Assembly (NCBI RefSeq): GCF_024372725.1
Contig: NZ_VOUA01000004.1
Span: forward strand, 1 to 64,000
Direction of reading: 5' to 3'
DNA: 64,000 bases
From: Methanosarcina sp. KYL-1
GTDB lineage: Archaea > Halobacteriota > Methanosarcinia > Methanosarcinales > Methanosarcinaceae
The notes under the pieces are model-generated. The model made no database searches. It saw nothing but the letters and a program-made list of their open reading frames with translations, and was not told the origin of the DNA. Made by a program: the position numbers and the translations under genes. How positions within the stretch are numbered: position 1 is the stretch's first letter; each line of letters starts with the position of its first letter. Positions 36,752 through 41,009 of the stretch are shown here, one piece after another.

Positions 36752-36752
36752 C

Positions 36753-37268
36753 AGGGGAAATCTTCATTTTTCCATAATTTTCACCCGGAAGTTTCTGACC
36801 CTGCATGCCGAGAGCCGTATGGTCGATGAGGTTTCCCGTATCGTTCAGAAAATATATGATACTGCAAACATTCTGGCGGGAGAAACTTTCAGCAGGGAAA
36901 CCCCTGTTACGGAGCTCTCAGGGGGCCAATCCCGCGCCCTGATGATTGCGGATCCCGCACTTCTCAGTCCGGCACCTGTCGTTCTGATCGATGAGATCGA
37001 GAATGCAGGAGTCGATAAGGTCAGGTCTCTGGAGCTTCTGGTAAGTAATAACAAGATCGTTTTAATCAGTACTCATGATCCTCTTCTGGCCCTGTCGGCA
37101 GATCAGCGCCTGGTCATTCAAAATGGCGGGATTTCAAAACTTTTAAAAACCACACCGGATGAGAAAAAGTACCTGAAGGGCCTCGAAAAAGTAGACCGCA
37201 AACTTACTCTTCTCCGAAACCGGTTGAGAAGGGGCGAAGAAATCGAATTTAGCGATTTTCCGGTGTAG
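36753..37268 (+). pseudogene. 5'-truncated ABC-type ATPase
   Basis: The frame holds only the second half of an ABC ATPase: signature motif ELSGGQSRAL, Walker B VVLIDEIENAG and H-loop ISTHDP. There is no Walker A motif. The frame is open 66 bp upstream of the ATG at 36819 (reading FTRKFLTLHAESR), which looks like authentic protein, but it ends at the HD gene, so the nucleotide-binding first half has been lost. It is probably non-functional alone. Confidence 0.65.
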
Positions 37269-37455
37269 CTTAATTTCACGGGGTAAAGAATAGCACATCA
37301 GAAAGAAATTCTTGGTATTTTAACCTTATGAGCTTTAATCTTTGACATTTACAATGAAGTTCGTAAAAATCAGAGATGTTAGTTTGATTTTTGGAATTAG
37401 CTCAAAGATAAAAGGTTTCTTCAAATTTGCAACATTTTCAAGCCAAACCAAAAGG

Positions 37456-37725
37456 TTATCGATTTAAGATCCGGTATCGTAAGATTTCGTGGGAATCGAC
37501 CCTCTGACCCCCAAACTCGGGGCTAACAATATCAAGTTCTTTGTTTTTCCCTATCAGGTAATGGGCTAACCCCCTGACCTTTAAGAGCAGGGTAGGCCCC
37601 CAAGAGGTCTGTTTATCCCCATAACCTACGGCCTGGTTCAGCATGTTAGAGACCTCACTCACTATTTTCTTGGCCCCTGACCCCCTTAACCTCATGTAAC
37701 CTGACTTCCGTCTTTTTAGGCGCAT
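37456..37725 (-). pseudogene. cas1: cas1 remnant, C-terminal part
   Basis: The 89-codon frame aligns, from memory of the family, with the C-terminal helical part of CRISPR integrase Cas1: YMRLRGSGAKKIVSEV corresponds to the region following the second metal ligand, and KVRGLAHYLIGKNKELD, SPEF and RVDSHEILRYRILN follow in the usual order. The normal last 25 residues are absent because a stop occurs early. The middle part of the same gene lies about 1.8 kb away on the same strand (39484-39595). No cas2 or CRISPR array was seen. Confidence 0.6.
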
Positions 37726-38115
37726 ATCTCCTCTTCCGCAAATCTGTGAGGCCAGATGATTGCGGTTTAGAAGATGATTGCGGTTTAGATATTATGCCTC
37801 CATCTGATGTGCTTAAGGTTAGGCGCTTGAATCGTCACCATGCGACACTGATGTGCTTAAAAATGCGGAAGTAAATTTGTATGCGTACCCTGCACTCTAA
37901 GGGCTGTCCACTACTGCTCGAAAAGAGGAATTGAAATCTTTACGATTATGCAATTCAAAAGGAATGTTTCTTCAAGGAAGCAGGGTGATATCTGATAAAC
38001 AGATTTTGTTTATGAATAGAAATGCGTTTTTTAAAACTCTGTTGGAACATTTCCTTTACTTGGGAAAATTGGATAAGCTTTTTCAATATATGTTAGGTTT
38101 ATAACCTCATTTAGA
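37726..38115. other. Intergenic region of the decayed patch
   Basis: No intact gene. An 18-bp direct repeat (GATGATTGCGGTTTAGA) occurs twice near 37757-37791. CRISPR-type repeats were looked for and not found. Confidence 0.4.
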
Positions 38116-38376
38116 TTATTTCAACCCTGGAGATTTTAGGGAAATTCGGAATTCCCAATTTAATTTATTTTTGTTTACAGGTGAGAAATTACATCTGACC
38201 ATCGCTTCTTTAAACTGCTTATTTGTGATAAAGAAACCATCTGGTGTTTGTTCAAATAAATTTTTAAGTGCATAACTAGTGTAATTTTTATTTGGTGTTT
38301 TTTGTGGGAGTATATTTACCATTATCCAATTATCCAGGGCTTTTTTTTCAATGTCGGTTAATTCGTATTCACTCAT
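38116..38376 (-). CDS. Phage-like small protein of unknown function
   Basis: This is an 86-residue acidic-to-basic protein starting MSEYELTDIEKKAL; an in-frame GTG nine bases earlier overlaps the ribosome-binding site AGGAGTGAG and is less likely. The segment YALKNLFEQ...GFFITNKQFKEAM resembles a small protein seen in many phages and prophages of Firmicutes. It is much more AT-rich than the core genes. This suggests a virus-derived gene in the decayed patch; its function is unknown. Confidence 0.6.
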   Translation of the reverse strand: MSEYELTDIEKKALDNWIMVNILPQKTPNKNYTSYALKNLFEQTPDGFFITNKQFKEAMVRCNFSPVNKNKLNWEFRISLKSPGLK

Positions 38377-38554
38377 TTTACTCACTCCTATCTTTCATAA
38401 TTTGCCAATAAAGTACTACTGAGCTGTGCTTTTAGTTTTTCTTCATGAAATATGTTTAGGTTTCTTGCCCCACGTACACTTTTGTATATTTTAATTCTCT
38501 TCCTTTAAGTAAACAAAAAACGTACATGAAATATTTGAATTACAGGCACAAAAA

Positions 38555-38578
38555 ATGAAAGTACTACGGTACTTTCAT
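38555..38578. terminator. Perfect 10-bp inverted repeat with TACG loop
   Basis: ATGAAAGTAC at 38555-38564 is perfectly complementary to GTACTTTCAT at 38569-38578. It stands between the divergent phage-like gene and the duplicated upstream element, so it may be an operator instead of a terminator. No T-run follows. Confidence 0.35.
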
Positions 38579-38597
38579 GCCAAATTAATGTATTTAT

Positions 38598-38665
38598 AGT
38601 AAAATTTACCGAATATAATTATACAATTCTCCATTTATATGATAGAGGTGGCTGAATTAATCCCC
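38598..38665 (+). repeat. Duplicated upstream element, copy A
   Basis: AGTAAAATTTACCGAATATAA...CCATTTATA...GAGGTGGCTGAA...AATCCCC is about 80 percent identical, without large gaps, to 39645-39713. It includes a ribosome-binding sequence (GAGGTGG), but what follows copy A is a short frame ending at about 38740, so this copy drives no intact gene. Confidence 0.75.
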
Positions 38666-38763
38666 TGGACGAGTCTATTTTTTCAGTCGAAACAATTAAA
38701 CATCTATATTTCTTTACACTATATGGATAATATATGAATGGGGGATCCAAAAAGTGTACATAA

Positions 38764-39069
38764 AAAACCTGTCCAACGTGTGGCGATAATTGCTCCCACC
38801 ACATCCGACTTTACAGACGGAGGTCAACATCTGAGGTCATAGCAGCCGAGACCGCGGACATCTGCTCACCAGAGGAACTTGCCACCTCCGTCCTTCATGA
38901 ACTGGCAGGCCACATCTACAATGGCATGACAACCTCAGAGCTCTGCAAGATCCTCGGGGACAAGTTCGGGGTCCTGGAACAATACTATTGTGATATCGTT
39001 CAGAGGCTGAAGGTCGAGCCGGATATGTATTGTCCGGATCATCAGCATTTGTATTTTGTTGAAGCTTGA
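38764..39069 (+). pseudogene. Remnant of an unidentified protein-coding gene
   Basis: A 101-codon open frame without a start codon in its first third encodes CPTCGDNC near the beginning and TSVLHELAGHIYNGMT, LCKILGDKFGV and QRLKVEPDMYCPDHQHLY towards its TGA at 39067-39069. Codon use is GC-rich like real genes and unlike the surroundings. The C-terminal half has a weak resemblance to PqqD-like peptide-binding domains, which is not enough to name it. The 5' part appears to be lost. Confidence 0.4.
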
Positions 39070-39103
39070 TATTCAAATTAATCCCCACACGCGGAGGAAT
39101 ATT

Positions 39104-39454
39104 ATGTTACTGAAAATGACTGCAATAATTATCCTGCTGCATGGGTTAATTCATCTATTCGGTGTAATCACTTTCTGGAAAATCGGTTTTCACGAGCACT
39201 ATTCCACTAAAGTTCTGGGCGGTGCACTGGATATCGGGGAACGAGGGGTCTATGTGCTGGGGTTTGCCTGGCTGGTGGCAACAGTTGCTTATACCATTGC
39301 CGCCTACGGCATGTTCGCGAATCAGGATTGGTGGCAAACCGGGTTATTCACTGCAGCCACGTACTCATTGGTTTTGACTGTGCTCGCATGGAAAGATGCC
39401 ATTTTCGGCAGCCTCATAAACCTCGCGATTTTGATTACACTGCTTCTCACATGA
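39104..39454 (+). CDS. Small four-helix membrane protein of unknown function
   Basis: This 116-residue protein has four hydrophobic helices: the N-terminal MTAIIILLHGLIHLFGV, then VLGFAWLVATVAYTIAA, LFTAATYSLVLTVLAW and LINLAILITLLLT. The ATG at 39104 follows GGAGG at the right distance; a longer frame starting at 39056 is not supported. Its stop is directly followed, on the other strand, by a cas1 fragment. No family is recognised. Confidence 0.7.
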   Translation: MLLKMTAIIILLHGLIHLFGVITFWKIGFHEHYSTKVLGGALDIGERGVYVLGFAWLVATVAYTIAAYGMFANQDWWQTGLFTAATYSLVLTVLAWKDAIFGSLINLAILITLLLT

Positions 39455-39483
39455 TACACCTTTCCATTCCTCTAATCTTTCCC

Positions 39484-39595
39484 GAACATGAGTATCCCAA
39501 CATACAGAATTAATGGCTCTCAGGCATTCAGCTTCAAGCAGAGCATAGCCATAATTGAGCATGGTGTAACTCGTGACCTGATCCACAGGAAAAAA
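39484..39595 (-). pseudogene. cas1: cas1 remnant, central part
   Basis: Read on the minus strand, the segment gives PVDQVTSYTMLNYGYALLEA followed by ECLRAINSVCWDTHV. This is the central Cas1 region that carries the first catalytic Glu (in LLEAE) and leads to the GFLHE histidine motif; after DTHV the sequence departs from Cas1. Nothing Cas1-like is seen before the PVDQ. With 37456-37725 it shows that one cas1 gene has been broken and mostly lost. Confidence 0.65.
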
Positions 39596-39644
39596 AGTAT
39601 ATAGTAATGAGTCAGTAAACAAAAAAGAAAATTACGGGATGTAG

Positions 39645-39713
39645 AGTAAAATTTACCGAATATAATGATACACTTCCCCATTTATAGCATGGAGGTGGCT
39701 GAAAATAATCCCC
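39645..39713 (+). repeat. Duplicated upstream element, copy B, before the FtsX-like gene
   Basis: This is the second copy of the 68-69 bp element at 38598. It holds TTTATAGC (TATA-like) and GGAGGTGG at 39691-39698 and directly precedes the truncated permease gene, so it is probably that gene's leader and ribosome-binding site. Confidence 0.75.
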
Positions 39714-39734
39714 CAAAATAAAAAAATCAAAATT

Positions 39735-40673
39735 TTGTCAGCCTTACTAACATTCACTGTTGTCACAGCCTTACTCCTGTTCACATTTTCTCAGATTACC
39801 AACGGTTATTGTACGGAAACCATACCCCCAGGCAATATCATTGCTATCTATCAGGCAGACCACACGTATGGGGACCTGAATGCGGTTTATGTCAAAGGTG
39901 CCGGATTGGATATCGATCCCCAGAAATATGATCGGATGATAAGCTACGAAGACATTCCTCGTATTGCTTCAATGGACGGGGTTGAAAATGTAATTATTTA
40001 CGATACCGGTTATTTAGATGCCCTTATTTATAAAACTGTAAGAGAAGGCAGATTACTGGATAAATTGAATCTCATTGCAGTGCCTGAAGCTATAGCACAG
40101 GATTATCTTAATCAGACTGTTATCCCCTACGGGACAGAATATCTGGAAGAAGGCAGGCTTCCCCGGGATGGCGCCCACGAAATTACAATTTCAAGGAAAT
40201 TGCTGGAAAAGCACTTTGCATATACCGATGAAATGCTGACCCGGGCAATCGGAAGCAAGGTAAACTATGACAATGAAACCTATACCATCGCAGGCATAAA
40301 CAGTTATGATATCTGTTACATCTCCTTTGACGCAAAAAGAAACTATGGACTCTATCAGTATGAGGCGGACACTTTTAATGAATTTGTAACAAGAAATCTC
40401 GACTATAAGAAAACGAATGATTATTTTCATCCGGAATATGCAAATGAAATCTTTATCTTTACAGCGGACGGCTCGGAAAAGTCGGTGCTGGACAGGCTTT
40501 TTCAAGAATATCCTGCAGAAAATTACATTTCCAGCGAATATGTTTCCGTATGGAAAAAGACATTTAACGGAAGTGTTCTGCGAAAAATAATCGTCATCGA
40601 TAGTATTGGTATTGCTTTGCTGGGCATTCTCCTTGTGCTCTTAAACAAAAGAAAGACAGAGGAAAAAGTATGA
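39735..40673 (+). CDS. MacB/FtsX-like permease, truncated (extracellular domain with two TM helices)
   Basis: A signal-like TM helix (ALLTFTVVTALLLFTFS) is followed by an extracytoplasmic domain of the MacB periplasmic-core type (EEGRLPRDGAHEITISRKLLEKHF) and a C-terminal TM helix (IVIDSIGIALLGILLVLL). The other helices of a full FtsX permease are missing. TTG 39735 is the first ordinary start, but the ribosome-binding site GGAGGTGG at 39691 and the Lys-rich sequence IPQNKKIKI before the helix point to initiation at ATA 39705 or ATC 39708. At its end, GTATGA overlaps a new ATG whose frame (MKKTMKNQIH) stops after ten codons, so the next operon gene is broken. Confidence 0.6.
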   Translation: MSALLTFTVVTALLLFTFSQITNGYCTETIPPGNIIAIYQADHTYGDLNAVYVKGAGLDIDPQKYDRMISYEDIPRIASMDGVENVIIYDTGYLDALIYKTVREGRLLDKLNLIAVPEAIAQDYLNQTVIPYGTEYLEEGRLPRDGAHEITISRKLLEKHFAYTDEMLTRAIGSKVNYDNETYTIAGINSYDICYISFDAKRNYGLYQYEADTFNEFVTRNLDYKKTNDYFHPEYANEIFIFTADGSEKSVLDRLFQEYPAENYISSEYVSVWKKTFNGSVLRKIIVIDSIGIALLGILLVLLNKRKTEEKV

Positions 40674-40702
40674 AAAAAACAATGAAAAACCAGATACACT
40701 GA

Positions 40703-41009
40703 CAGCGGGACTTTATATGCCAGGCTTCATAATCATCAGGGCCTTTCTCTTCCAATATCTTCAGAGTTTTCCACTCCAATTTTCCCTGCCTGGAAGGAGA
40801 ACCAAACCAGCAACAACTTTTTTATGATAAGTTCTTCAATTCTGTTCAATATTTGATTGAAGTTCAGGACCGGATAGAATTTGGCATTAAATTAAAATCC
40901 GGTACCATTAGAAATCCGACATTCAATCGGAACAGGACACTGATAGAGATCAGGCATTCAATCGAAATTCGGTATCATTAAGTTTCACAGACCAACCAGG
41001 TGTAATCGA
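40703..41009. other. Intergenic region before dadD, no gene seen
   Basis: Degenerate direct repeats (CATTCAATCGGAAC / CATTCAATCGAAAT, and ATCCGGTACCATTA / ATTCGGTATCATTA) lie at about 40898-40981. Otherwise nothing is recognised. Confidence 0.4.

Follow-up and report, generated by a model that had tools for sequence, protein, structure and literature searches.

Casposons are jumping genes thought to be ancestral to the enzyme that makes the memories of CRISPR systems. The closest described relatives of the locus considered here are the family 2 casposons, among them MetMaz-C1 of Methanosarcina mazei, which are treated in PMC6977970, PMC10359463 and PMC4046053. Their integrase is known as the casposase. 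The sections of the first two papers on casposase activity state that the M. mazei enzyme joins inverted-repeat ends into a 14-bp target, and those of PMC6977970 on its structure name E162, H232 and E247 as catalytic residues and twice give the entry code 6opm. A second point of comparison is the Cas1-solo group 1 of Methanomicrobiales, a form of cas1 without CRISPR for which the portion of PMC4046053 dealing with the group reports no evidence of horizontal transfer.

The stretch of DNA analysed here, referred to as the window, comprises 64,000 nucleotides of Methanosarcina sp. KYL-1 (contig NZ_VOUA01000004.1, positions 1 to 64,000). It contains two pieces which, judged by sequence comparison, are very probably dead remnants of a casposase gene, i.e. 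casposon debris, and not of a CRISPR Cas1. The kind of element is already known and the window adds a dead relic to it; the find is mostly a case of ordinary genome decay. The features of the locus are as follows:

36752-41009, no strand: whole mosaic island, bounded by an HD-domain gene and an amidohydrolase gene
37461-37493, no strand: short dispersed repeat of 33 bp abutting the C-terminal piece, with copies in L048, L046 and L014
37484-37697, minus: casposase C-terminal piece, inside ORF 37456-37725, codons about 279-355
37697-37874, no strand: dispersed MITE-like repeat of 178 bp abutting the opposite flank of the C-terminal piece, with copies about 70-76% identical
37871-38507, minus: unit with the 89-aa phage-like gene (38116-38385), 92-96% identical in nucleotides in G008, G003 and G002
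38515-38608, no strand: dispersed repeat of about 75 bp, with copies in this genome and many genus-mates
38582-38665, no strand: duplicated segment, first copy (second copy 39629-39713, 85% identical, spacing 1047 bp)
39107-39454, plus: short gene for a hydrophobic protein, foreign to the genus and preceded by a gene remnant at about 38800-39080
39485-39567, minus: casposase middle piece, codons about 202-228, with weaker homology up to about 39590
39568-40675, plus: upstream region and MacB-like permease gene (ORF 39735-40673; Pfam MacB_PCD, 1.9e-6)

Identity and extent of the two pieces

An earlier note on this DNA had proposed a search of both segments against Cas1 profiles. Both did match Cas1, as it had anticipated, but weakly: ORF 39365-39622 was hit by Pfam Cas_Cas1 at E 0.0087, short of the family cut-off, by TIGR03639 at 0.039, TIGR00287 at 0.067 and PADLOC Cas1 at 4.5e-4, while ORF 37456-37725 was hit by TIGR00287 (cas1) at 0.016 and PADLOC Cas1 at 0.0043, with no match in the Pfam profile search. 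Direct comparison with intact homologues of about 408 aa (tblastn across the 64-kb window) settles both pieces as cas1-type. In this comparison 37462-37695 (minus strand) aligns with codons 279-355 at 83% amino acid identity (E 8e-36), and 39485-39565 (minus strand) with codons 202-228 at 78-89% (E 7e-8 to 4e-9). The C-terminal piece is also 91% identical in nucleotides to the intact casposase of G008:C17. Among solved structures, the best match of both pieces is the M. mazei casposase, 6opm (E 1.6e-17 for the C-terminal and 1.5e-9 for the middle piece), whereas the closest CRISPR Cas1 structure was matched by one piece only, at E 0.029.

The homologue comparison, with E values of 8e-36 and 4e-9, confirms what had been claimed of two cas1 pieces lying on the minus strand in gene order, and supports the description of an eroded, interrupted cas1-type gene. 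The distance between them, put at about 1.8 kb, was measured as about 1.79 kb, as against 150 bp in all 11 intact genes compared, so that unrelated DNA stands in place of about 50 codons, including H232 and E247. When the catalytic positions are mapped onto the homologue, E162, H232 and E247 all fall outside both pieces. The N-terminal domain of the casposase is likewise missing from the relic, and the C-terminal piece ends at about codon 355, with the bases beyond it aligning so poorly that the helix-turn-helix (HTH) fused to the Cas1 C-terminus was not found there. We infer that the relic has no integrase function. Both ORFs, 37456-37725 and 39365-39622, nevertheless stay open over 85-89 codons, which would suit live small genes reusing casposase fragments; however, the extent and the joining partners of the casposase pieces vary among the relatives compared, and we regard such reuse as highly improbable.

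The earlier note had interpreted the pieces as a former CRISPR adaptation module that was interrupted here. They do share with such a module their membership of the Cas1 superfamily, but they are unlike it in being accompanied by no cas2, cas4 or repeats, and in a sequence much closer to the casposases. The genome carries CRISPR systems of its own, namely one on contig 3 with cas4, an I-C-type cas1, cas2 and 25 repeats, and one on contig 5 in which an 85-repeat array adjoins an I-B-type cas1 and cas2; both cas1 genes are intact and located away from the pieces. Used as queries with matches considered up to E 10, its Cas1, Cas2 and Cas4 proteins gave a best E of 0.29 in the window and no match overlapping the pieces, whereas casposases match these far better, at up to 83% and 89%. 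The note had also suggested looking for CRISPR repeats nearby; those of the two arrays of this genome are absent from the window at up to 4 mismatches. Taken together, these observations make a CRISPR origin a very remote prospect. Eroded casposases can pass for a broken CRISPR cas1, and the finding corrects a possible mis-annotation.

None of the 108 spacers of this genome matches the window. Targeting of casposons by these spacers was considered and set aside, two short matches (22 and 16 nt) in casposon-carrying loci of other genomes being unconvincing. A crude array scan of the window detected a single array, of three copies, at 2134-2229 and some 35 kb from the pieces, in which a 20-mer occurs three times at short spacing as a small tandem array.

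Casposon partners and ends

The intact homologues in the relatives adjoin a family B polymerase (PolB), a small HNH protein, a 212-aa protein and a protein of about 300 aa. Of these neighbours, Cas1 and PolB were confirmed by Pfam and the HNH protein by PHROGs, and the 212-aa and roughly 300-aa proteins would correspond, by position and by the description in the relevant part of PMC4046053, to the HTH proteins of family 2 casposons. Of 12 loci tested, 9 (L044 to L047, L049, L050, L145, L150 and L241) showed inverted repeats resembling the printed M. mazei terminal inverted repeat (TIR), with the same end counted in both of the overlapping loci L049 and L145; L048 and L240 had no such repeat, and L053 gave a loose match unlike an end. 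The PolB and HNH neighbours, taken together with the inverted repeats, indicate that the intact homologues are casposons, and hence that the two pieces are casposase debris. It is from these casposons and their inverted repeats that the relatives appear to merit the label Methanosarcina-like. In two of the loci, at L150 11509-11524 and L045 10301-10316, inverted-repeat ends lie 14 bp apart, an arrangement of tandem casposons sharing one target site.

The locus thus resembles the family 2 casposons in its casposase sequence over both pieces, and in having intact relatives within the genus that carry PolB, HNH and inverted repeats of the M. mazei type. It differs from them in that only one kind of gene is represented in the window, by two fragments, with neither ends, nor catalytic residues, nor partners. 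Its assignment as family-2-type follows from gene content and not from a tree of our own. The Cas1-solo group 1 likewise has a cas1 without CRISPR, but the relatives of the pieces in the window are, unlike that group, multicopy mobile elements.

Searches of the window with PolB, HNH and the two putative HTH proteins from the intact relatives gave no match at E <= 0.01 (tblastn). The M. mazei TIR 16-mer had 0 matches in the window at up to 3 mismatches, and neither terminal inverted repeats nor a target duplication were found there. With no other casposon gene and no M. mazei-type TIR in the window, the element is deduced from one gene. The point near 38046 at which homology to G116 and G119 stops hinted at a degenerate casposon end, a reading rejected because the alignment scores there were within the range of shuffled sequences. 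Of the 14 ends tried, only that of L044_8318 exceeded its shuffles (30 against a maximum of 27), at a place in the stretch other than 38046.

The MacB-like locus and the number of casposons

The region 39568-40675, with the MacB-like gene, is 84-91% identical in nucleotides at the syntenic locus in G003, G008, G014, G025 and G002, and the other side of the locus is also syntenic among these genomes. In G003, G008 and G014 this MacB-like gene likewise has casposase pieces upstream. G029 has a C-terminal piece whose adjacency to MacB is presumed, as the MacB gene is on another contig; in G002 the locus holds a weak casposase piece of 62 bp, and in G025 the locus is present with no casposase piece found there. 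From the presence of casposase pieces beside MacB in several relatives it follows that the relic is older than these species, and the locus adds a fossil casposon with pieces next to a single gene in four species or more. The remnants differ in form: G003:C34 has kept the middle piece with the same junction to the MacB upstream region as in the window, G014 and G029 share a junction at which the C-terminal part is joined straight to the equivalent of position 39568, and G008:C29 retains, upstream of this MacB gene, a degenerate but near-full casposase (codons 67-410) in which the two regions are spaced roughly as in an intact gene. A search of the genome itself with a partly guessed MacB query matched two places, both paralogues at about 45%.

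In the window this locus forms part of a mosaic island. The HD-domain and amidohydrolase genes are 4.26 kb apart here, as against 252-608 bp in 17 of the 22 relatives with both on one contig and about 1.7, 1.8, 3.6, 9.1 and 225 kb in the remaining five, a count that leaves out seven further relatives which could not be measured. Several features which the earlier note had placed between the two pieces are present, namely a phage-like gene, which is the 89-aa gene (PHROG 9576, E 6e-18), a 132-aa ORF, and a 75-bp segment that occurs at both 38582 and 39629 with 85% identity, 38582-38665 being the first copy of a segment from upstream of MacB. The hydrophobic gene at 39107-39454 has matches in 5 of 237 genomes of the class, this one included, and in no other member of the genus. 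The MITE-like repeat at 37697-37874 has copies in many genus-mates, including several in G026; counts of the dispersed repeats are lower bounds, 10 candidates per genome having been scored. The repeat family at 38515-38608 holds a short hairpin-like inverted stretch. Outside the two pieces, between the HD-domain gene and the C-terminal piece, an ABC ATPase-like fragment lies at 36819-37268, with no nucleotide match among the loci of the relatives compared.

That both pieces come from one gene, as the earlier note held, is plausible, though not proven, since their order and orientation in the window fit a single gene, and we lean somewhat towards this reading. In addition, the C-terminal piece in the window and L005 form a group with the corresponding relics of G014, G029 and G008:C29, with low inner support. 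There is, however, a substantial if not preferred possibility that two separate casposons are involved, the C-terminal piece having come with the 89-aa gene unit and the middle piece with the MacB locus. The nearest relatives differ between the pieces: relative to L005, the C-terminal piece differs at 19 of 212 sites (91% identity) and the middle piece at 21 of 81 (74%; Fisher p 4e-4), and in intact pairs with C-terminal identity of at least 85% the middle identity is 79-88%, above the 74% of the window. Yet the single near-full relic of G008:C29 displays the same mosaic similarity within one gene, being 87% (C-terminal) and 78% (middle) identical to L005. This weakens the divergence test without removing it and leaves it indecisive, so that divergence is not taken to demonstrate different sources and is kept only in favour of the alternative.

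Genomic context also bears on the choice. In G008:C30 and G003:C63, casposase pieces border the 89-aa gene with no MacB nearby, and the same holds in G117 and G118, which belong to another genus. In G029, codons 117-67 and 320-291 lie on opposite sides of the 89-aa gene, an order not obtainable from one gene, and tandem casposons do exist, as in L045 and L150. Against two casposons stand the G008:C29 relic and the arrangement in the window itself. In the favoured account of the casposon debris, a family-2-type casposon once sat upstream of the MacB-like permease gene in the lineage from which several Methanosarcina-like species descend, its casposase, when alive, presumably joining the inverted-repeat ends of the element into a 14-bp target by analogy with the M. 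mazei enzyme. In this genome the element has lost its ends, its polymerase, HNH and HTH genes and its catalytic centre. About 150 bp of cas1 have given way to about 1.8 kb of later material, comprising dispersed repeats, the 89-aa gene unit and the foreign segment, and the block with MacB is at present located between the HD-domain and amidohydrolase genes.

Casposase debris across the genus and the 89-aa gene

Casposase-like fragments are common in the genus, with a match in 26 of 30 genomes, CRISPR Cas1 included. Their distribution along the gene is strongly skewed towards its 3' half (loci L181-L220, with intact casposons in L044-L050). Among the matches listed, 52 of 104 fragment rows extend to codon 385 or further, a single row begins ahead of codon 31, and coverage averages 57 rows at codons 361-380 versus 5-9 at codons 61-200; these rows were copied by hand, excluding CRISPR-type rows, those below 45% identity and 8 that represent intact genes, and several rows can stem from a single relic. 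Between intact copies, conservation at codons 41-120 and 161-240 is about equal to that at 361-400, so that conservation alone does not explain the bias. Many of the cas1 tails keep about 30-140 bp of shared, AT-rich sequence past the matched codons. PolB fragments are rarer than those of the casposase and likewise lean to the 3' half. Two-ended mini-casposons were rejected as the source of the tails, as genomes with many tails (e.g. G025, G026 and G028) have no PolB match. The literature searched, of which coverage was partial, contained no account of genus-wide casposase debris, and we make no claim that such debris is undescribed. A genus-wide surplus of cas1 3' ends, if upheld in a controlled count, could tell how casposons die or insert incompletely.

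The 89-aa gene occurs in 42 of 237 genomes of the class, nearly always as a single copy. Of 20 loci examined, 9, in two genera, have it no more than 1.5 kb from casposase pieces; the 20 were drawn from 46 places listed for the gene and are mostly the best-scoring ones, and loci with the linkage include the window (38116-38385), L150, L151, L153, L154, L223, L227 and L228. In the second genus the gene is at one place, with casposase pieces on one side or the other, and its neighbour there, named by eye, resembles phosphoglycerate kinase. Its dN/dS is 0.05-0.22 versus three distant relatives, 0.37-0.52 versus four closer ones, and above 1, with very few changes, versus two close relatives. One could conceive, as a rather unlikely proposal, that the 89-aa gene marks a recurrent casposon landing or break site in the archaeal family, with end-biased casposon decay both there and across the genus, a decay in which incomplete insertion or internal deletion might keep the 3' end of cas1 while the rest is lost. 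If this were true, the window would be one snapshot of a repeatable process and not of random erosion; the end bias and the linkage to the 89-aa gene are leads, not results. This genome has a second casposon relic, at about 6339-6625 of L053 (G000:C10:72338-72624), in which PolB codons 783-820 are joined directly to casposase codons 206-263, an order such as internal deletion would give.
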